DNA of 64,000 bases from Lasiosphaeria ovina (Eukaryota; Ascomycota; Sordariomycetes; Sordariales; Lasiosphaeriaceae), in the NCBI GenBank assembly GCA_033439765.1, contig JAULSN010000002.1, positions 4,650,001-4,714,000 of the forward strand, read 5' to 3'. Under the pieces are notes generated by a model, which made no database searches, was not told the DNA's origin, and saw only the letters and a program-made list of their open reading frames with translations. Made by a program: the position numbers and the translations under genes. This document shows, piece by piece, positions 15,351 through 59,498 of the stretch (position 1 is its first letter; every line of letters begins with the position of its first letter).

Positions 15351-18300
15351 TTAATATGCACACACGTCTGCAGCCGCCGCCTTCGGCTCCCTTCTCTGCT
15401 GCAACGATGATCGAGAGGGCCGTTTTGCTTCGGGTGGGCTGACTTCGGCAGACACGTCTGTAGCCGCGCCCTTCGCCTCCCTTTTCTGCTGCCTCTCCTG
15501 CGCCCTTTTCTTTCTCTGCACCGATGATCGAGGGGGCCGTTTTGCTTTGGGTGGTTTGGCTTCGGTAAATACTACTCCAGCCGCCGCCATCGCCTCCCTT
15601 CTTCGACGCGCCCTTCTCTTTCTCTGTACCGATGATCGAGAGGGCCGTTTTGCTTCGGTAGATACGTCTGCAGCAGCCGCCATCGCCTCTCTTCTTCGAC
15701 GCGCCCTTCTCTTTCTCTGTACCGATGATCGAGAGGGCCGTTTTGCTTCGGTAGATACGTCTGCAGCAGCCGCCATCGCCTCTCTTCTTCGACGCGCCCT
15801 TCTCTTTCTCTGTACCGATGATCGGGAGGGCCGTTTTGCTTCGGTAGATACGTCTGTAGCAGCCTCCTTCCCCAACCTTCTCATACGCGTCAGCATTCTC
15901 CAACGCACCAGACGCGCCCTTTGCCTTCTCCTTGTTAGATAGGGCCGTAATGCTTTGCGTGGTTTGGCTATGGTAGATACGCCTGCAGCAGCCCTTTTCG
16001 CCAGCCTTCTCTTTTTCTTTGTTAGATAGAGCTGCTTTGCTTTCAGTAGTTTGGATTTATAGTTCCTGTCCACTGTAGCAACACCAAGCGCGTCCAAAGT
16101 CCCCGGTTCGGCTTTATAGTTCTTGTCCACTGTAGCGACACCAATCACGTCCAAAATCCCCGGTTTGGCTTCGGACTTCATGTCCCTGAATAAGGCGACT
16201 TCGAATTCCGAACTACCGCGGATCAAAGTCGACAGGGCGTGTATGACGCGAGGACACTGTTCGCTTATCCTGTCGAGAGCCGAAGATACTCTGCTGGACC
16301 AGTGCCTCATCTCATCCAACTCCTGGTATTTCTTGGCCAACACAAGAAGGGTGTGGGCAGTTGGTCTTGGGCGATGGAGATGAAAGCCGAGTCTTCTCCA
16401 TACGAGGGGAAGATCATTATTTTTTACTTTTTTTCTTACACGGCGATTTTGATACCAACCAGTCCAGTTCGGCATCAGCTGTTTCTCGCAGACGGCGAAA
16501 GCTTCATTCCACATTTTCATTTTGGCGAGTAGCTGCACGTTGATGTTCCAGTTCTTGCTGTCCACTTCAAACCCGTCTGCCTTGATTTGAGGAATCAACT
16601 GCACCAGCCCGCTTGCGTCTCCCTCGACAAAGCAAACTCTCTGCATCGTTTTGAGGGGGCTGCTGAGATCATAGCGGAATTTGGGTAGGATCCTGGCGGT
16701 ATTATCTCCGGCTTTGGGTGCCTGGCGCCTTTGCTTGGCTGCTTCCAAGACGATGCGCCATGTTGCCCTGACTTTGTCGTAGTTTCCCTCGGCGAAATCG
16801 GCGAGCATGATTGCATGCAGCATCCTGATTGAGGCGTTACCTGGCTCGGATGGGAACTGACTCTGGTAGAGGTTGACTATTTCTTCCACGGTTGAGAAAT
16901 CTCGCATCTGGGTCAGAATGAGGATGGCCTCGGAGGACTGTGTGGCGGCCCAGCGAGCGTCGGGAGCAACCGCGCCGTCAAGAGAAGTGCTCTGGCTCTG
17001 TCCCGCCGTCATGCTGATGATGTTCTTGAGCGAAACCCGTGCTTTATCTACTTGCTCGCTCCTCGATGGTGTCTCCGAATATTTCCTTATTAACTGGTGC
17101 AGCGCCTTCATGGTGTTGGCTGTTCTCTGAGCAGATGGGGGAACTCCCTTCGCCGTCAAGAAGTCGTTGATCTTGAGCGCAGCGTCTGGTTCGCCGGTAA
17201 CAATGAGAGCCGACATGAGAATCATGTAATGCTCGACTGTTGGGTGGAACGTTTCGTTCTTCTCGGCCTCCTTCAGCAGACGGAACGCGTGCATCGACTG
17301 CTTACAATACATCAGCGCTAAGAGGAGTTGGCGATAGGTATCATTGTCGTATGGCAGGCGGTGGCTGGTCATGACGTCCAGAAGCCGGTTAACCGCATCT
17401 AGATCCCGCCGCAATCCATGGTGGTGTAGCAGAGTGTTCCAAAGAACAGTGCAGCCGTTGTGACGGCCAGGTTCCTTGGTGACTGCGATACAGAGCTCTT
17501 CGGCTTGGGAAAACTGGTCATTCTCACAGTATGCCTCAACCACGGCGTCGATCATGGCTATGTCGGGCTCGACCTCAAACTCTTTTGCTAGGCGGAGGAG
17601 GTCTAGAGTGAAGTCAAGGTCGCCGCGGGCCCCCGACATGCCCATGACTGTCCCAAAACTGACGTGGTCGACCTGGCTCTGCTCGAACATGTGTACGAAT
17701 GTCTTGACGGCTTCGTCATACATCCAGGCACGCGCATAAGCATTGAGCAGGACGTTCCAGTACTTGGTGGGTGGGGGCATGGTTTTGGCGACTTCGTCAA
17801 GCACCTCGCGGGCGGCTTCGGGCTCGCCCCTCACGGCGTGGACGTGCATCAAGCTCATGGTGAGCGACGTGTCTTCCCGAGCAAGCAAGGGTAGGCACGC
17901 CAGATATTCCTGGGCGAGTCGCTTTACCGCCCCAACATCGCCGCGGTTGGCGTAGTAACTTAGGAATTTTTGATAACCCCATTGAGTCATGTCCTTACCC
18001 GTCAGTTTCCAGTCCCGAAGCAGCTCTTCCATCGCGACTGTCCCGTCCGAAAAGTGAACAGAAATCATGGCTCGAAAGACGCCGCTGGTAATGGACATGC
18101 CAGGAAAAGCCCGATATTGCCTGTAAAGGCGAGCGGCAAGCTTCTTGTGCCCCTTCTCAGCACAGTGGATAATGTATGATGCATATGGGACATATACGCG
18201 TTCATAATCTGGCGTCGATTTGCATCCATGTCGGAGACGTTCAAGGATGAAGACGGCGCTCGACTGCTCGAAAAGGGGCATGGATTTATTGGTCAGAAGC

Positions 18301-19583
18301 CTCATAAAATAATCAAGATCGGGTCTCGCGCGCGATCCGCCCCAACTGTACAAGTCTTGAATCCGTTCTGGAAAACTTGGCACGGTGGCCACGCGTTCAA
18401 ACGTCATGGTCTGATGGTCGGCTCCCCGAATCGCTGCAGTCCGCCATATCAACAGCGCGGCGTGAACCAAGGGCCACAACTGTTCCTTGAGGCCGTGAGC
18501 AAGCAAAATATCCAACCCCAGGTTGTTGTTGCCCTTGGGCTCCAGAGATGACGTGAAAATATCGACGGCAGCCTTGGGGTCCTGCAATACGAGGTGGGCG
18601 TCGATAGCTGCATTCAGCGAGTCCAAGTTCCGCTTATGGACGGGGCAGAGCTCCAAGAGCTTCAACACTCTCGTGGCGTCTGCCTGCCGACTTGACTTGG
18701 CGAGTTTCGCCATGACGGCGGTCCTATACTCGTCCTTGAGGACAGAGTCGAGATCGCAGTAGAGGGCCCAGATACGATCGTAGGAAGAACCCTGGTCGGG
18801 ACCTAGCTCCGAAGACAAGATTTTCACTAGTGACATAGCCTCCCAGGATCGGACCCCGATGGGCGACGGAACCTGAAGTGCAGGGCCATCCAGGGCCGAG
18901 TCCTGATTTTGACAGAGCTCCCGCTCTCCATCTCCGTGAGATTGATGGCCAATGCCCACCCCTATCAACTCTAGCGTGGCAGATATCTCGCTCGGCGGCT
19001 TATCTGAGACAAATGAACCTCCCTGCTTGTCTGCGCCCGCGGCTTCGGTATGTTTTTGCGTCTCTGAATGCGCGGCTTTCGCAGCAGCCTCGAGCGCAGC
19101 AAAGGAATCTCGCTGCGTTTCTGCGCCTTCAGCCTCGGCAGCACCCCGGGACGGATAGGGGATCGAGGAGGTATAGAAGCGGCCGGGCAGAGAGCGCGCC
19201 CTCTGGCTCGACCCGTCGCTGTCGGAGATGGCTGGACGTAGCCTCTGTAGCAGGCCGAGTGCTGGACTGGGGTAGAGGAAGTCGAGCAGGAAAGCCGATG
19301 CCGTCATTGAATCGAGCTTCCTCTCCGAAGGGGTCTGCGACGGGGGAGGAGGGCTGGGGGGGCTGGAGGCGGCTGGGGCGAGCAATGGCAATGGCAATGG
19401 CAATGGCAGGCGCGTGAGAGAAAGGCAGGCGTCGAGGAGCTCGATGTCGGGGGCGCCATGGCTCCAGAAGGTCGTTTGCAGCTGGTGAGGCCGATGGGTC
19501 GTCTTGCGCAGGGGCCTTAGGGTAGCAGGGAGAACTCGCTGGAGGTTGCACGGCTCGAGGCTGGCCGCGGTCCTCTCCAGCAT
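15351..19583 (-). CDS. Mitochondrial pentatricopeptide-repeat (PPR) protein, possibly Cya5-like
   Basis: Single-exon protein of 1410 residues. The N terminus is Arg/Ser/Leu-rich without acidic residues, as for a mitochondrial presequence. A disordered Ala/Glu region follows, then a long helical array from about residue 260 to 1100 with repeated PPR-like units (for example PTKYWNVLLNAYARAWMYDE and NGCTVLWNTLLHHHGLRRDL). PPR proteins bind organelle RNA and control its processing or translation. The start segment MLERTAASLEP resembles Sordariomycete proteins annotated as the COX1 translation factor Cya5, which is only a suggestion. The last 200 or so residues are unusual: a basic tandem repeat of 31 residues (93 bp) described separately. 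The CAATGG repeat near 19385 encodes a Leu-Pro run. ATG 19583 is the first in frame. Confidence 0.85.
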   Translation of the reverse strand: MLERTAASLEPCNLQRVLPATLRPLRKTTHRPHQLQTTFWSHGAPDIELLDACLSLTRLPLPLPLPLLAPAASSPPSPPPPSQTPSERKLDSMTASAFLLDFLYPSPALGLLQRLRPAISDSDGSSQRARSLPGRFYTSSIPYPSRGAAEAEGAETQRDSFAALEAAAKAAHSETQKHTEAAGADKQGGSFVSDKPPSEISATLELIGVGIGHQSHGDGERELCQNQDSALDGPALQVPSPIGVRSWEAMSLVKILSSELGPDQGSSYDRIWALYCDLDSVLKDEYRTAVMAKLAKSSRQADATRVLKLLELCPVHKRNLDSLNAAIDAHLVLQDPKAAVDIFTSSLEPKGNNNLGLDILLAHGLKEQLWPLVHAALLIWRTAAIRGADHQTMTFERVATVPSFPERIQDLYSWGGSRARPDLDYFMRLLTNKSMPLFEQSSAVFILERLRHGCKSTPDYERVYVPYASYIIHCAEKGHKKLAARLYRQYRAFPGMSITSGVFRAMISVHFSDGTVAMEELLRDWKLTGKDMTQWGYQKFLSYYANRGDVGAVKRLAQEYLACLPLLAREDTSLTMSLMHVHAVRGEPEAAREVLDEVAKTMPPPTKYWNVLLNAYARAWMYDEAVKTFVHMFEQSQVDHVSFGTVMGMSGARGDLDFTLDLLRLAKEFEVEPDIAMIDAVVEAYCENDQFSQAEELCIAVTKEPGRHNGCTVLWNTLLHHHGLRRDLDAVNRLLDVMTSHRLPYDNDTYRQLLLALMYCKQSMHAFRLLKEAEKNETFHPTVEHYMILMSALIVTGEPDAALKINDFLTAKGVPPSAQRTANTMKALHQLIRKYSETPSRSEQVDKARVSLKNIISMTAGQSQSTSLDGAVAPDARWAATQSSEAILILTQMRDFSTVEEIVNLYQSQFPSEPGNASIRMLHAIMLADFAEGNYDKVRATWRIVLEAAKQRRQAPKAGDNTARILPKFRYDLSSPLKTMQRVCFVEGDASGLVQLIPQIKADGFEVDSKNWNINVQLLAKMKMWNEAFAVCEKQLMPNWTGWYQNRRVRKKVKNNDLPLVWRRLGFHLHRPRPTAHTLLVLAKKYQELDEMRHWSSRVSSALDRISEQCPRVIHALSTLIRGSSEFEVALFRDMKSEAKPGILDVIGVATVDKNYKAEPGTLDALGVATVDRNYKSKLLKAKQLYLTKKKRRLAKRAAAGVSTIAKPRKALRPYLTRRRQRARLVRWRMLTRMRRLGKEAATDVSTEAKRPSRSSVQRKRRARRRREAMAAAADVSTEAKRPSRSSVQRKRRARRRREAMAAAADVSTEAKRPSRSSVQRKRRARRRREAMAAAGVVFTEAKPPKAKRPPRSSVQRKKRAQERQQKREAKGAATDVSAEVSPPEAKRPSRSSLQQRREPKAAAADVCAY
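15361..16040 (-). repeat. In-frame 93-bp tandem repeat in the PPR gene tail
   Basis: Units recognised by the core GATGATCGAGAGGGCCGTTT start at 15406, 15523, 15631, 15724 and 15817. The last three are spaced exactly 93 bp and are nearly identical; the outer ones differ by insertions of 15-24 bp. More degenerate copies extend to about 16040. Each unit encodes about 31 residues with the core TEAKRPSRSSVQRKRRARRR, making a highly basic C-terminal tail. The array is also open on the + strand (15547-15942), which I regard as a by-product. Confidence 0.85.
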
Positions 19584-38948: not shown

Positions 38949-39020
38949 GCCGCGGTAGTGTAGTGGTTAACACCCTAGTATCTTTGCTAGAGGTCGGGGG
39001 TTCGAATCCTCCTCGGGGCA
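38949..39020 (+). tRNA. Degenerate tRNA-like sequence inside chromovirus B
   Basis: A cloverleaf can be drawn: acceptor stem GCCGCGG/TCGGGGC with one mismatch, D arm GTGT-AGTGGTTA-ACAC, perfect T arm GGGGG-TTCGAAT-CCTCC and discriminator A. The anticodon arm is abnormal: stem CTAGT/GCTAG leaves a six-base loop ATCTTT, so no anticodon can be assigned safely. It lies between the pol stop and the 3' LTR of element B. It may be a captured, decayed tRNA gene; it is probably not functional. Confidence 0.42.
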
Positions 39021-53758: not shown

Positions 53759-54189
53759 GTATTAAGTTGGGTAAAAGTTGCCTACGTGTATACAACTTAA
53801 TTGTAACTTGCTTGGCTGACCATCGCCTCCCATAGTTAGGGGCTCCCCATCGAGATACTCTATCCCCTTATCTGTCTCACTTATCCATTTCGCCAACCCG
53901 AGTGAAACTGTGGCCCAGATTTGGGGAGAAGCGATGTATTTTGAGACCGAAACGGCGCCGTTGCGATCGCCATTTTCCCCAGTCAAGATGCCAGCCAGCG
54001 CGCCAGTCAGCCAGCCAGTGGGCTCACACATCCCGGCGCTCAGCCAGCCCAACCATTACCCCCAGGCTAGGGTCTTGGCACACCGATCAGACGACCATTC
54101 ACACAGCTGCATTCGTCGCGCATGCTGGGGCGTCAAATGCTCGGGCTTTGGTTGCTCTGCAAGGTCCTCCAAAAATGGTAGTCCAAGTA
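53759..54189. other. Short stretch upstream of the Tc1-type element
   Basis: No independent gene supported. The minus-strand frame 54133-54187, directly beside the transposon, may be the displaced end of the micro-exon gene (see findings). A CAGC/CAGT-rich patch lies near 53988-54020. Confidence 0.35.
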
Positions 54190-55467
54190 CAGTAGGCGGC
54201 AAAAAGTTTGAAACCCAATTTTGTACCGCGAAAGCCGCTAGCCGTATTAGGAATAAATATATATTTTAATATTTCGTATACCAACCTTCCGCTTTAATAA
54301 CGGCCATAACGCGGTGAGGCATTGTACTCGCTAATCTATCTAGAATTGCTTGGTCAATTGCATGCCAGGCATGCTGTGCAGCACTGATTAGCCTCTGTAA
54401 GGTCTCTTCCGTATCTGGAGCATGCTCAAGCTCTGGATACTCCCGGTATATCTCGGCCTTCATAAGGGCCCAGAGGTTCTCGATTGGGTTAAGGTCTGGA
54501 GAGTACGGTGGCCAGACCATAACCTGAATACCGAGTCTATCGAGAACAGCCTTTACTATCCGAGCTGTATGTACTGAGGCATTGTCGTGCATGAAGATAT
54601 CTCTAGGTTGTACAAAGTCTGGAAGCATACCTTCGTACAAATAGCTAATAACCCATCCAGAGACACCTTCTCTCGCCGAGAGAGGGTCACCATTAAGAGG
54701 GACCAAGCCGGTACGACTACTATAGCCAAAGCCAGCCCAAAGTATCTTCTTCATACCCTTCCCACTATATAAAACTTCCTTTATATCATATTGTGCAAGT
54801 TATTCGTATGGCCGAAGGAAGGTCCAAACTGGTCGTATCCCTTTCCCTCTTTCCATAGTACATTCGTCACTCCATTTAAGCTCCTCCAATCTACCTCTAT
54901 ATAATGCTCGCAGCGTCGAGCCCAAGCGAGTCGTGCGGCAGCCTGTGTATCGGTTAATTAAGGTCTCCTCAATTGGCGCCATTTTCGTTTACCCATTTCG
55001 TGAAGAAGGCCTCGGAGTGATCGTTCTTTGATCACATTATCCACCGAATCGAGAAGGTCTCTATGAGATACGTGGGGATTCGTATATGTGATTATATCGT
55101 AGATTTGGTCTCGTTGTTCTTCGGTAATCTTGCGTGGTGCTCCTGACCGCGGTCGGGTCTGATTGTCAATTCGAAGAGCCTCGCGTCGTATTGTAGTCTT
55201 TATTATACTAAGGGGGATTTCTGGATGTAACTTATGAATACGTGTAGGGCCATATCTTAAAGAATATAGCTCACATATACGCGAGCGTATTTGAGGTGAT
55301 AATTCCGACCGTCGTGCTATGATAGTAGGATTGTTGTTTTAGTTATTATTATTACAAAAAAAAGTGGTTATGAGGGGAGACTAATACGCGTCGTCTTCTT
55401 TTAGTTAGCGGCTTACTAGCGGCTTTCGTAGTACGAAATTGGGTTTCAAACTTTTTGCCGCCCACTG
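54190..55467 (-). mobile_element. Tc1-type DNA transposon, inactive
   Basis: 1278 bp bounded by inverted repeats starting CAGT(A/G)GGCGGCAAAAAGTT, continuing through TGAAACCCAATTT, and flanked by the TA target duplication (54188-54189 and 55468-55469). The first bases of the two ends differ by one transition. The transposase inside is broken. Confidence 0.9.
54266..55345 (-). pseudogene. Tc1-type transposase, frameshifted
   Basis: An N-terminal paired HTH region is readable (SELSPQIRSRICELYSLRYG and RPRSGAPRKITEEQRDQIYD). The middle DWRSL and KWSDECTMERGKGIRPVW lie in different frames near 54890, so there is a frameshift. TAA at 54800-54802 follows RPYE. The C-terminal part is intact, with HDNASVH and WPPYSPDLNPIENLW; 34 residues separate the D and E, the DD34E spacing of Tc1 transposases. 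It ends at TAA 54266. Confidence 0.85.
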
Positions 55468-55471
55468 TAAC

Positions 55472-58400
55472 TCAACCAGTCCTCATCAGTATCGTGAATC
55501 GCTTCGATATACCCAGGGGAAGAGACAGGAACTTACATAGTATGCGCGTGCCACAAACGCTGCACTTGAATCCGTTAGCAATTAAGCTCTCTTCTGAAGC
55601 TTGAACCAATAGCCAGGCTGGGCTCTCCGGCCAATCTCGATGCGGGATGCGGAAGCTGTGATAAGGCGAGCGCAGCCGATCGTGGGCAGCCGGCCCACCC
55701 CCGTCAGCATTCTTTCCATCCTTCGCCCGGGTGTTACAACGCAGATGAAGCAGATGCCAGTCGACACGCTGCCCTTGAGAACTCGATGCGCCCATTGGAC
55801 TGTCGCCACTTTGTGAAACCGCCTGCGGTTCAGTCCGAGAGCTCACTTTGCCGCGGCTTGCACCACCGCACCCGGTCGCCAACAAGAGACAAAAGATCGG
55901 CCCACCACAACGTTTCAAATTTGTATTTGCTGCCATTAGTCGTTAACAAACTTGGTCCTGCCATTCGTTTGAAGGAGAGTGACTTACAGTCCTCGGTTCC
56001 TAGTTGATATCTTCCACGACACAATGTGTTAGTCTCGTGGCAAACATTAGGTAGCAAGTAGTGAAACAACTGAGGACACTCACTGACAACTGGCGTCTAA
56101 TGCATCGGTCAGTTTGAATCTAGATCGAGTGCGTCATTAAGGGGATGCTGACCACGCGCCCAGAATGCTCACACGCTGTCGCCAATGGATGTCAGCGCAC
56201 CAAGTTCCAAAAGATGGCGCACTTACGCAAATCATCAATCTACTTTTTCTAGTGCGAGTCAGGACGTGCGATTGAGTTTGTTGATTCGAGATTCGAAACA
56301 GTGGATTATCCTGTGGTGACTTACGCCCGCCGCCGCCATCGCATCTTGGACCTTGGTAAATGTCAGCATCATTAAAGCATACCTAGGTAGGCACCCTGGA
56401 GAGAAATCGCGCACCGCTTTGTCAAACATCCCCTGCAACGAAACCAGCACAACTGCAATTGGAGAAGCCATTTAAAAATTATGGAACGGTACTTACCTCA
56501 ACGTAGCCGATAACTCAGAGAGTTATTAGTGAGCTTTTGCTATTTTAGCTACGGTAACTACACCACCACCTATCCCGCTTTCTCAATGACACATGAAGAC
56601 CATTGCGATTAATGCAAGAACCAAATCGGGTCGCCGAGGCCTCCTCCTCAGAAACCTTATTCTACACATACCTAGTTAGTAAGATATACTAAGCGTTGCA
56701 GTTACTCAGAGTTAAATGTAACTTACGATCATCTCGACCTGCCATTTCTACATAACGAAGCAACGATTAGCGTCCAGATTCTGCGAAGTGTAGCGGTAGG
56801 CATTTGGGATGGGAAGACTTACGGCAGCCTCCTTGATACAATGCTGTACCGGGATTCAGCCAGCTTGGCCACAAAACAACAATGATAATAATAGGGGGGC
56901 GATGGTACTCACGTCCCTCTCATTGGTGAGACGCTAGGAAGGTCAGCGGTGCAGTTCAATAAGTTGGGTATGACTGCTTGGATCTCTTACTTGGATCTCG
57001 TGCTCGCAAAACTATCAGATGAGATGTGGTAAGCTAATCGTTCGGGCCGCTCTCGATACCAGTAGGCAGGAATATTGCACTTACGGTCGCCTTTGTTTTG
57101 AATTGCTAAACGACAAGTCAGATACTTGTGGCAGAGGGAACGAGATTACGGGGGCACTCACAGCTATCATGCTTTTGGCGTACTAACAGTGTCAATGTGT
57201 TGGTAGAGTACAGACATTAAGCGCAGTCGCTAGGGGCGACTTACTTCAGCTGAAAAAGGCTGAAGGCAAATTGTTAGCAGCCAATCGTCTAGGTGGCAAC
57301 CGAATCAGTGAAGGACTCACTTTGGGCTATGGGAAGGAAGAGGTCAGCGATTGTCAATCATGGTGCGGGATACTAGGATTATGATACATACCTTCTTGGC
57401 CGGAGCCTCCTCGGTCGCCGGGGCGGGGCGCTTGTTTGAGGTGGACTAATAACATCATTGTTAGTTACAGTACGCATACCTAAGCAGAGAGGACTAGTGC
57501 AAGGGTAGACAGATAGGTAGGTGTAGGAAACAGTAATACTTACGGCACTGGCGTCGCTGGCGACGCCGTTGGTGGTGATTATCTCCTAGCGTTACAACAG
57601 CTTGTCAGTGCGACTGATAGGCCAGCGTGGGGGTGTCTGAGGTTGTCGCTGTCTGAGAGGCGCCTAACATACTTTAGGTTCTTGTCTCTGTGCCACGTAG
57701 TCAGCAAACTGAAGGTGCAATATGACTGATGTGGCCAAGATGCAAGGGTGGGAGAAGAAGAAGGGCAAATTGGATCCTCGGCCCTCTGAAGAAGTGCTGC
57801 TCGGATTGGCGGAGAGCATATTGGGACGCGGGAGGACAAGGGAAAAGGGGTAGTCGGCGGCGCTCGCGACATACTCTCCGCATGACGAAGTGACGCTGGC
57901 AGGAGGACGTTTGTGCTAAGGGCGCGAATCCAATGTCGGACTGGAGGCATTGTATTGCACAATGTGATTGGGATTCTTCCGCAACTCCTCTAAGAACAAG
58001 GTTTTGTGCCAGCACTGCGCACTGAAGTCGGCCGACCCCCGCTCCTGGCTGCCTCGAAGCCACCATCGCAAGGGGCAACGTCGAGTGGATGCTCAGATAA
58101 AGAGGAGAGGTGACGGGGAGGTATTGGGCACAACGAGGGAATGTGTGGAATACTGGGGCAAACTTGCACCCGCCAGCCCAGCTATGTAGGTAGTAATTGC
58201 GCACTAGCGCCGAAGGTGTGAATGCATGAAATAGGACCAGTTCTAACGACCAACATGCTGTAAAGGAAAGTAGGTACTTACGGTCGGCACCTGGGGGGTG
58301 GCGACGCGGATGTTCTTCTATATGAGTATCAGCTGTCGTGTTCTGGGTCGGAGCTCGTGCCTTTCGCGATATAAGGGCCGAGGAGGATTTATCAAGTACG

Positions 58401-58609
58401 TACTTTGGCAGCAGGCATTCTATGCACCACGTTAGCGTTACAAGCCAACCCCAGAGCGTTATGACCGAACTCGCTTTGCGATTTCGCTGTAGGGGAAGAA
58501 AAAATATAACGAGTCAGCATGGAACTTGAGCTGCGTTAGGTACCCCGGGTTCAACTCACTTCTTTGTTGGAAGCTGTCTGTCAGAGGTGGGCGATGTGTT
58601 AGCGTCCAT
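55472..58609 (-). CDS. Micro-exon gene encoding a heptad-per-exon coiled coil, unknown family
   Basis: About twenty minus-strand exons can be joined in one frame. They are 58560-58609, 58466-58486, 58404-58419, 58282-58317, 57673-57687, 57544-57585, 57392-57445, 57321-57326 and 57245-57259. Six exons of exactly 21 nt follow: 57162-57182, 57085-57105, 56991-57011, 56913-56933, 56823-56843 and 56727-56747. These encode YAKSMIA, QFKTKAT, FCEHEIQ, RLTNERD, HCIKEAA and KWQVEMI. Most introns are 56-75 nt with GTAAGT/GTGAGT donors. The N terminus is basic (MDANTSPTSDRQLPTK, MPAAKKN). The 3' side is less certain: 56661 onward with an unclear donor, 56497-56513, 56415-56432, 56325-56351, then 13-, 3-, 6- and 12-nt candidates and a long last exon from 55929. 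A 594-nt intron (57688-58281) may hide exons. Only this frame is open through all the 21-nt exons. The donor at 58465 (GTCATA) is weak. I do not recognise the protein; a structural or regulatory coiled coil is inferred. Confidence 0.62.
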
Positions 58610-58746: not shown

Positions 58747-59498
58747 TACATACCGGTTCTGTCGTTGGTGGACGACGTTTGTTCGGAGACAAAGGTTTTG
58801 AAAGAGAGGATCATCGCCAGGGCAAGGCTCGCTCTTTCTGACGCTACCATCGATCGGGATGACCTGCATCACCAGTCCACGATGCTGACCCGAATGATCG
58901 ACCTCGAACGGCGGGCCACTACGATGGCGGAGAGTCTTCAGCGCTATCGGTACCTCGCCGACGTCGGAGACTGGGCGGCAGGCATTGTCAACATCGCTAA
59001 GAGCGCGGAGACAGTTACCAAAAACGACCACCAAGTGCAACTTCAGACGCATTTCAAGGCCACCGGATCGTCTGCGGATGACGCTGCGAAGATGGTCCAA
59101 AACCTCGACAATTGGCTTGTTTTGAAAGGAACCCAAGCCACCGATTGCTGGGTCATTCTCGAAGGAGAACTCGATCGTATCCGCTCATGGTCCCTTGAAG
59201 GTCGACGAGCGGGAAAGGAACCAGAGTCCCCGGGCTTAGTATGTGTCTTTATTTGTTATTCCCATTCTGTTGCTCCAGTCATTCCAAGATAGACACTGCT
59301 CTTTGACACAAACACTCCACACCCCCTGAGCTGAGGGGTGACAAACACACTGACGGATCATACCACCAGGATCGGATCCAACATCTAGCTGCGTCACTAG
59401 GCATATCGCGGCAAAAGCTGATCGACGCGATACGCCTATACTCGGATCGGAACTATTATCAAAGGTACTCGCAAGCAAGAAGCCCATACTCGATCTAA
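58747..59498 (+). CDS. Orphan helical protein, 5' end uncertain
   Basis: A plus-strand frame open from 58747 to 59238 is followed by an intron (59239-59369, GTATGT...CCAG) and a second exon 59370-59498 ending in TAA. The sequence is alpha-helical and well balanced (VCSETKVLKERIIARARLAL, DDAAKMVQNLDNWLVLKGTQ, HLAASLGISRQKLIDAIRLY), so it is probably real coding sequence of about 205 residues. There is no ATG at the start of the open frame. The start may be the ATG at 58660-58662 spliced to 58747, but the acceptor there follows a G run, which is unusual. It diverges from the micro-exon gene with only about 50-140 bp between them. I do not recognise the family, and the 3' end may be truncated. 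Confidence 0.5.

Follow-up and report, generated by a model that had tools for sequence, protein, structure and literature searches.

In the micro-exon genes (MEGs) of schistosomes, very small symmetrical exons form most of the coding region, and the products, all of which carry a signal peptide and are secreted or membrane-anchored, are varied by alternative splicing (PMC4350168; this and the other papers are cited for the excerpts on which we draw). The bicycle genes of aphids contain many micro-exons, with internal exons of phase 2 and about 17 exons on average, and form a large family with CYC motifs and salivary-gland expression (PMC9168663). In plants, short exons encode part of the polymerisation region in the K-domain of MADS-box proteins (PMC7714060). 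As for fungi, a 2005 study of the basidiomycete Phanerochaete chrysosporium found micro-exons of 2-10 codons, the shortest of 6 bp, in nearly one-third of P450 genes (PMC1184071), and a 'switch-like' 20-nucleotide (nt) microexon is described for Trichoderma Xlr2, in a paper according to which there was no earlier description of functional microexons in filamentous fungi (PMC11121469). Here we describe a minus-strand gene of the ascomycete Lasiosphaeria ovina, situated in a stretch of 64,000 nt that we analysed as a whole (contig JAULSN010000002.1, positions 4,650,001 to 4,714,000; hereafter the window), which contains an unbroken run of six 21-nt exons. Our reading, to which we give a probability of about 0.7, is that this is a transcribed, protein-coding micro-exon gene which is constitutively spliced, that its product is probably a small nuclear helix protein, and that its C-terminus has probably been truncated.

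Exon structure and the spliced product

Reading the sequence from 59200 to 55000 on the minus strand together with a listing of its splice sites (YAG acceptor and donor pairs 3-60 nt apart), we find six consecutive exons of exactly 21 nt, all in phase 0, between 57182 and 56727. The introns that separate them measure 56, 73, 57, 69 and 75 nt, and have GTGAGT, GTAAGT or GTAAGA donors and YAG acceptors. At five of the six donors the listing offers no multiple of three other than 21 nt as an exon length; at the last donor a 12-nt alternative is also open, while a 54-nt alternative is interrupted by a stop codon. An initial reading of the DNA, made from its letters only (the sequence-only reading), had proposed this run with its strong donors, along with a 6- and 15-nt micro-exon pair, a 42-nt exon, and stop codons that exclude the other two frames. 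All of these are present where they were placed, frame 2 being excluded in the first 21-nt exon and frame 3 in the fourth.

Joined together, the exons first predicted encode 108 residues. When this joined protein was searched against 5.8 billion predicted proteins, one match, among two candidates, had an expect value (E) of 10 or less. The match, P0001, has 141 residues, comes from one contig of 1,104 nt, and forms a cluster of one sequence. It is identical to every joined exon, and adds an RQEPK exon and 28 residues beyond the joined end. When phase-0 introns of 40-800 nt are allowed, a single GT-AG path in the window reproduces 141 of 141 residues of P0001 and its stop codon, and this path agrees with the six 21-nt exons. 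Since the contig is shorter than the 1,874-bp span of the gene, we conclude that it was derived from spliced RNA or a copy thereof; the source is tagged 'lgn', which we take to denote the Logan assembly of public reads. The claim of a genuine minus-strand micro-exon gene is thus borne out, as an expressed gene with all exons in phase 0, by a letter-for-letter match.

In total the gene has 14 coding exons and 13 phase-0 introns, with a translated part running from 58418 to 56545 on the minus strand. The exon lengths are, in order, 15, 36, 15, 42, 54, 6, 15, 21, 21, 21, 21, 21, 21 and 117 nt; nine of the 12 internal exons are of 6-21 nt, and all 12 are multiples of three in phase 0. Exons of 6-54 nt (13 exons, all multiples of three) account for 309 of the 426 coding nt, and those of 21 nt or less, counting the coding part of exon 1, for 177 of the 426. 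The introns are of 56-98 nt, except for the longest, of 594 nt (57688-58281), of which no second copy was found in a genome search. The gene is smaller than the extent of 58609-55472 originally proposed. Position 55472 is the edge of a Tc1-type transposon, and a frame begun at 58609 runs into a stop once the canonical donor after 58560 is joined to the acceptor that follows; the stretch from 58609 is probably untranslated. The MPAAK frame of exon 1 stays open upstream to 58486, so there may be a longer N-terminus that passes through another 5' exon; the upstream extension is not in P0001.

Coordinates of the coding exons of the micro-exon gene and of the features at its 3' end (positions in the window)
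Feature	Position	Strand	Basis
Exon 1, coding part, 15 nt, start codon, MPAAK	58404..58418	-	identical in P0001
Exon 2, 36 nt, KNIRVATPQVPT	58282..58317	-	joined prediction and P0001 path
Exon 3, 15 nt, RQEPK, after the 594-nt intron	57673..57687	-	from P0001; absent from joined prediction
Exon 4, 42 nt, EIITTNGVASDASA	57544..57585	-	joined prediction and P0001 path
Exon 5, 54 nt, STSNKRPAPATEEAPAKK, holds most of the bipartite motif KRPAPATEEAPAKKPK, which resembles a nuclear localisation signal (NLS)	57392..57445	-	P0001 path
Exon 6, 6-nt micro-exon PK, finishes the NLS-like motif	57321..57326	-	P0001 path
Exon 7, 15-nt micro-exon PFSAE, directly N-terminal of the predicted helix	57245..57259	-	P0001 path
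Exon 8, 21-nt micro-exon YAKSMIA	57162..57182	-	splice-site listing and P0001 path
Exon 9, 21-nt micro-exon QFKTKAT	57085..57105	-	splice-site listing and P0001 path
Exon 10, 21-nt micro-exon FCEHEIQ	56991..57011	-	splice-site listing and P0001 path
Exon 11, 21-nt micro-exon RLTNERD	56913..56933	-	splice-site listing and P0001 path
Exon 12, 21-nt micro-exon HCIKEAA	56823..56843	-	splice-site listing and P0001 path
Exon 13, 21-nt micro-exon KWQVEMI	56727..56747	-	splice-site listing and P0001 path
Exon 14, coding part 117 nt including stop: NKVSEEEASAT (gene) and 27 repeat-derived residues	56545..56661	-	P0001 path and repeat match
Dispersed repeat, 127 bp, 98% identical to G000:C32:1638020-1638146; two copies	56502..56628	-	genome DNA search
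Probable spliced 3' untranslated region	55537..56501	-	six GTRAGT donors, short candidate exons
Tc1/mariner-type transposon, DDE_3, inverted ends of ~54 bp, abuts the 3' end of the gene	54186..55472	-	genome and domain search

Chance, coding capacity and the 3' end

In order to compare the exon run with chance, we used a chain finder that links a YAG acceptor, an open exon of 6-60 nt in multiples of three and a GT[AG][AC]G donor across introns of 45-110 nt. On the window it recovers a chain of eight exons at the gene and, besides it, one chain of three. In 100 resampled windows (first-order, in 2-kb blocks) the longest chain was of 3 exons in 51, 4 in 11, 5 in 2 and fewer than 3 in the other 36, and chains made only of 21-nt exons did not exceed two (reached in 6 of the 100) as against six in the gene. 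Within the same genome (51.7 Mb, 32 contigs), 23 ten-kb stretches out of 33 loci (243,715 bases) gave a longest chain of 3, seen twice, in the 230 kb scanned; loci L001, L003, L007, L008 and L010, which contain the gene or border on it, were left out of this sample. The donors are concentrated in the same way: between 58420 and 55473 the minus strand has 5.1 GTRAGT per kb and the plus strand has none, and the densities for the whole window are 0.17 per kb on the plus strand and 0.48 per kb on the minus strand, with the gene counted in.

Retention of any single intron would introduce an in-frame stop (10 of 13 introns) or a frameshift (3 of 13), and all five introns whose length is a multiple of three contain a stop. 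The chance that 13 of 13 introns fall in phase 0 is 6e-7 at one third per intron, or 1e-4 if half of introns are in phase 0. Nothing would call for such a pattern in an RNA that is not translated, and we therefore regard the gene as coding.

The 3' end presents a different picture. A 127-bp dispersed repeat contributes the last 27 residues of P0001 and its stop codon, the first 114 residues being free of stops and frameshifts. Past the stop there are six further GTRAGT donors, directly after 56497, 56325, 56227, 56084, 55988 and 55537, with candidate exons of 22, 36 and 12 nt among them, which we infer to be former coding exons that are now untranslated. Given a stop derived from the repeat and six more strong donors before the Tc1-type element, the gene looks truncated: the small repeat would have cut off the original C-terminus, which was probably lost in this way, and brought the present stop codon. 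Two observations on these elements may be added. The C32 copy of the repeat lies near what appears, as judged by eye, to be the 3' part of a tRNA-like sequence, and the Tc1/mariner-type element has two near full-length relatives in the genome (84-87% identity) and many short matches to its ends only.

A protein end derived from a repeat and introns after the stop would equally suit a gene in decay, and the first alternative to be weighed is that the locus produces a non-coding multi-exon RNA, or is a pseudogene which the 127-bp repeat has cut short and in which the open frame is no more than a relic. In filamentous fungi, introns after the stop would invite nonsense-mediated decay, and the absence of a homologue points the same way. 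We nevertheless consider this explanation unlikely, given that the first 114 residues are open, that all 13 introns are in phase 0, and that the RNA was found fully spliced across the coding part.

Splicing, the predicted helix and the source of the equal exon lengths

Nine of the 13 introns have a GTRAGT donor. The last exon base is G at only one of 13, compared with 33% of 49 candidate introns found in 285 kb of this genome (p 0.04), which places the splicing signal mostly on the intron side. Short introns (56-98 nt, with the one exception) and strong donors together suggest intron definition, a mode of splicing that usually fails by retention. The exons being too short to hold splicing signals, each short intron would be recognised singly through its strong donor, and all micro-exons would be joined constitutively; we infer constitutive splicing of the whole set. 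According to a plant study, retention is the more frequent outcome for micro-exons in plants, and skipping in animals (PMC8831610).

Residues 41-56 of the product, KRPAPATEEAPAKKPK, have the layout of a bipartite NLS, presumably similar to that of nucleoplasmin, and residues 1-59 hold 10 lysines or arginines against 5 aspartates or glutamates. A single-sequence AlphaFold2 model shows no regular structure before residue 60, followed by one helix at residues 60-109 that spans the six 21-nt exons, with predicted local confidence (pLDDT) of 87, 93, 96 and 87 for successive blocks of residues 61-100 and 64 for residues 101-110. The 21-nt exons thus encode most of a predicted 50-residue helix, and the NLS-like motif precedes it. 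Judged from these features, the gene probably encodes a small nuclear protein, in which a basic and probably flexible segment of residues 1-59 would carry the nuclear-import motif and the amphipathic helix would be expected to form pairs, either with its own kind or with a partner helix. The joined protein has no Pfam family above cut-off, the two matches found being far below their cut-offs. Sequence matches in the PDB (best E 1.1 and 3) were rejected, as were fold matches there, of which 19 had E of 10 or less and none had E of 0.001 or less.

The sequence-only reading held that each 21-nt exon encodes one coiled-coil heptad. What stands of this is the predicted helix and a register above chance: of the seven possible 4-3 registers in the six exons, the best is positions 2 and 6 (p 0.004 by the Kyte-Doolittle scale, 0.025 by Eisenberg). 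What does not stand so well is its extension and its period. Adding the next heptad weakens the signal to p 0.03 and 0.12, adding both flanking heptads to p 0.04 and 0.24, and the variance of position means (p 0.03 and 0.16 in the six exons) is not significant with flanks (p 0.12 to 0.56). Hydrophobic Fourier power over 57 residues, a length at which periods 0.2 apart are barely separable, peaks at a period of 3.6-3.67 (p 0.02, 0.01) and is not significant at 3.5 (p 0.27). As the peak is not at 3.5, an amphipathic helix accounts for the data no less well than a canonical heptad coil would; the former is supported, and the latter is possible.

These results bear on a second alternative, namely that regulated skipping of single micro-exons yields helices that differ by whole heptads, so as to change the length or partner of a coil. 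All 12 internal exons being multiples of three in phase 0, any skipping would keep the frame; the design of the schistosome MEGs permits the same (PMC4350168), and for the basidiomycete P450 genes that contain micro-exons, alternative splicing has been suggested (PMC1184071). However, no skipped isoform was seen, the sole product found in the protein database (one match, two candidates) including every micro-exon; intron definition would favour retention over skipping; and the heptad register is weak. The original suggestion that splicing tunes coil length is therefore unsupported so far, and we regard it as doubtful. Equally doubtful is its strongest form, in which this would be the first fungal micro-exon gene with an exon equal to a helical heptad, a 'ruler' whose splicing resizes a nuclear coiled coil by single heptads. 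If that form were true, genes of this type might be widespread in fungi yet invisible.

Turning to the equal lengths themselves, we compared the six 21-nt exons in register. Of 21 bases 7.8 match, compared with 5.9 when the order of codons is shuffled (p 0.0006), in tests that rest on six or seven short exons and several scores. By codon position, the p values are 0.03 for the first and 0.01 for the third; without the first and last codons the value is 0.006, with a seventh unit 0.004, and at the protein level 0.006. Four of the six exons, and also the unit that follows them, have GAG as codon 5. On this evidence from the sequence, the equal lengths most likely stem from an old 21-nt repeat unit, which might go back to exon duplication or to a heptad repeat that introns divided at one and the same point of every unit; a shared helix constraint could also explain the similarity.

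Such an origin has to be set against recent intron invasion, in which introner-like elements, known to arrive in bursts in ascomycetes, would have inserted repeatedly and cut up an ordinary gene for a helical protein. The introns are indeed mostly short, alike in length and near-identical in their donors. Those tested (nine, with four of the 13 left out) are no more alike than shuffles, with a mean score of 12.3 versus 11.9 (p 0.18; best pair p 0.42), which disfavours an introner origin, and random insertion would not be expected to produce six equal 21-nt exons in one phase. We thus think invasion distinctly improbable. Least credible of all is the idea that P0001 is a gene model or retro-copy from another assembly instead of a transcript, since, for all that its source bears only the label 'lgn', its database row has no annotated name, a 1,104-nt contig cannot hold the gene, and a processed DNA copy would show the same splicing anyway.

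It is important to note several points that count against our preferred reading of a constitutively spliced, protein-coding gene with an old repeat behind its exons. Expression rests on one contig, known here through its predicted protein, and with no homologue besides P0001 among the 5.8 billion proteins, selection on the protein is not measurable. The helix model comes from one sequence, with a mean pLDDT of 66 and a predicted template-modelling score (pTM) of 0.32. Among the exon comparisons, codon position 2 gives p 0.08, third positions alone without the first and last codons give 0.05, and local alignment of the 21-nt exons equals shuffles (p 0.47), as does that of nine introns (p 0.18).

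Surroundings and comparison with known systems

A protein search of the organism's own genome gave six matches, namely exons 5 and 14 of the gene itself, the C32 repeat and three weak ones (E 1.35-1.54, 25-26% identity). No second copy of the gene was found by DNA or protein search of the genome, exons of 7 codons being undetectable by that protein search. Head-to-head with the gene lies a plus-strand open frame of 175 residues (58765-59292), which has no Pfam match at E of 0.01 or less; a promoter common to the two is possible. Elsewhere in the window, a tandem protein repeat at 15351-16000, with units containing KRRARRRREAMAAAADVSTEAKRPSRSSVQ, is C-terminal in an open frame of 1,410 residues (15351-19583), and a tRNA gene at 38949-39020 on the plus strand, the only Rfam match at the gathering threshold in the whole window, sits amid few long open frames. 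Among the best 120 of 7,998 scored matches to the L-2-hydroxyglutarate dehydrogenase encoded in the window, the Lasiosphaeria miniovina protein shows 91% identity, and the named relatives that follow it are from Sordariales at 77-81%. By this one gene the host falls within Sordariales, with L. miniovina as its nearest relative.

The evidence from P0001 indicates that eight consecutive exons, of 6, 15 and six times 21 nt, are joined by the spliceosome of an ascomycete. It also provides a compact natural substrate on which to study how intron definition deals with exons that leave no room for exonic signals. Gene predictors tend to discard exons of 6-21 nt, and protein databases would for that reason lack such genes; should they be common, a class out of reach of protein searches is missing from the catalogues of fungal genes. 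The statement that no fungal family of this design has been described agrees with Pfam and with the open-access literature that we searched, in which we found neither a fungal gene made of a run of equal-length micro-exons nor a mention of micro-exons in mycorrhizal SP7 effectors.

Single fungal micro-exons are already known (PMC1184071, PMC11121469); what we did not encounter in the literature searched is a gene that strings together equal 21-nt exons. The P450 micro-exons of Phanerochaete chrysosporium resemble ours as very short fungal exons with short introns, yet are scattered in known basidiomycete enzymes, and equal-length runs are not described in the excerpt of that paper (PMC1184071). 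Xlr2 provides a micro-exon from a filamentous ascomycete, one that the consensus gene model missed (PMC11121469), but it is one exon that is not a multiple of three and that switches a DNA-binding domain, whereas the gene here has nine internal exons of 6-21 nt that are all multiples of three. The MADS-box K-domain genes are a known family of land-plant transcription factors, whereas ours has no Pfam family above cut-off and no relative.

The likeness to the schistosome MEGs lies in a coding region that consists mostly of very small exons in multiples of three. Unlike them, the gene here has an NLS-like motif, one isoform found, and no hydrophobic N-terminal stretch: in a hydropathy scan, made without a signal-peptide program, the highest Kyte-Doolittle mean over 8 residues within residues 1-40 was 1.21, at residue 24. 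Nor did Pfam or protein searches reveal a sequence relation to the MEG families, individual MEGs not having been compared directly. With the aphid bicycle genes it shares micro-exons nearly all of one phase and few or no relatives by sequence search, but that phase is 0 instead of 2, no second copy was found, and the CYC motif is absent from P0001. With no secretion feature, a phase unlike that of the aphid genes and no relation in sequence found, we do not class the gene as a MEG or bicycle member; by analogy of design, it is an orphan gene that resembles the micro-exon genes of both schistosomes and aphids. It also offers a case for examining a possible tie between the length of exons and a repeat in the protein. 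The 54-bp exons of collagen represent such a tie, exon length there being a whole number of structural repeats; in the gene described here the unit would be 21 nt, and the repeat is weakly visible in the protein.

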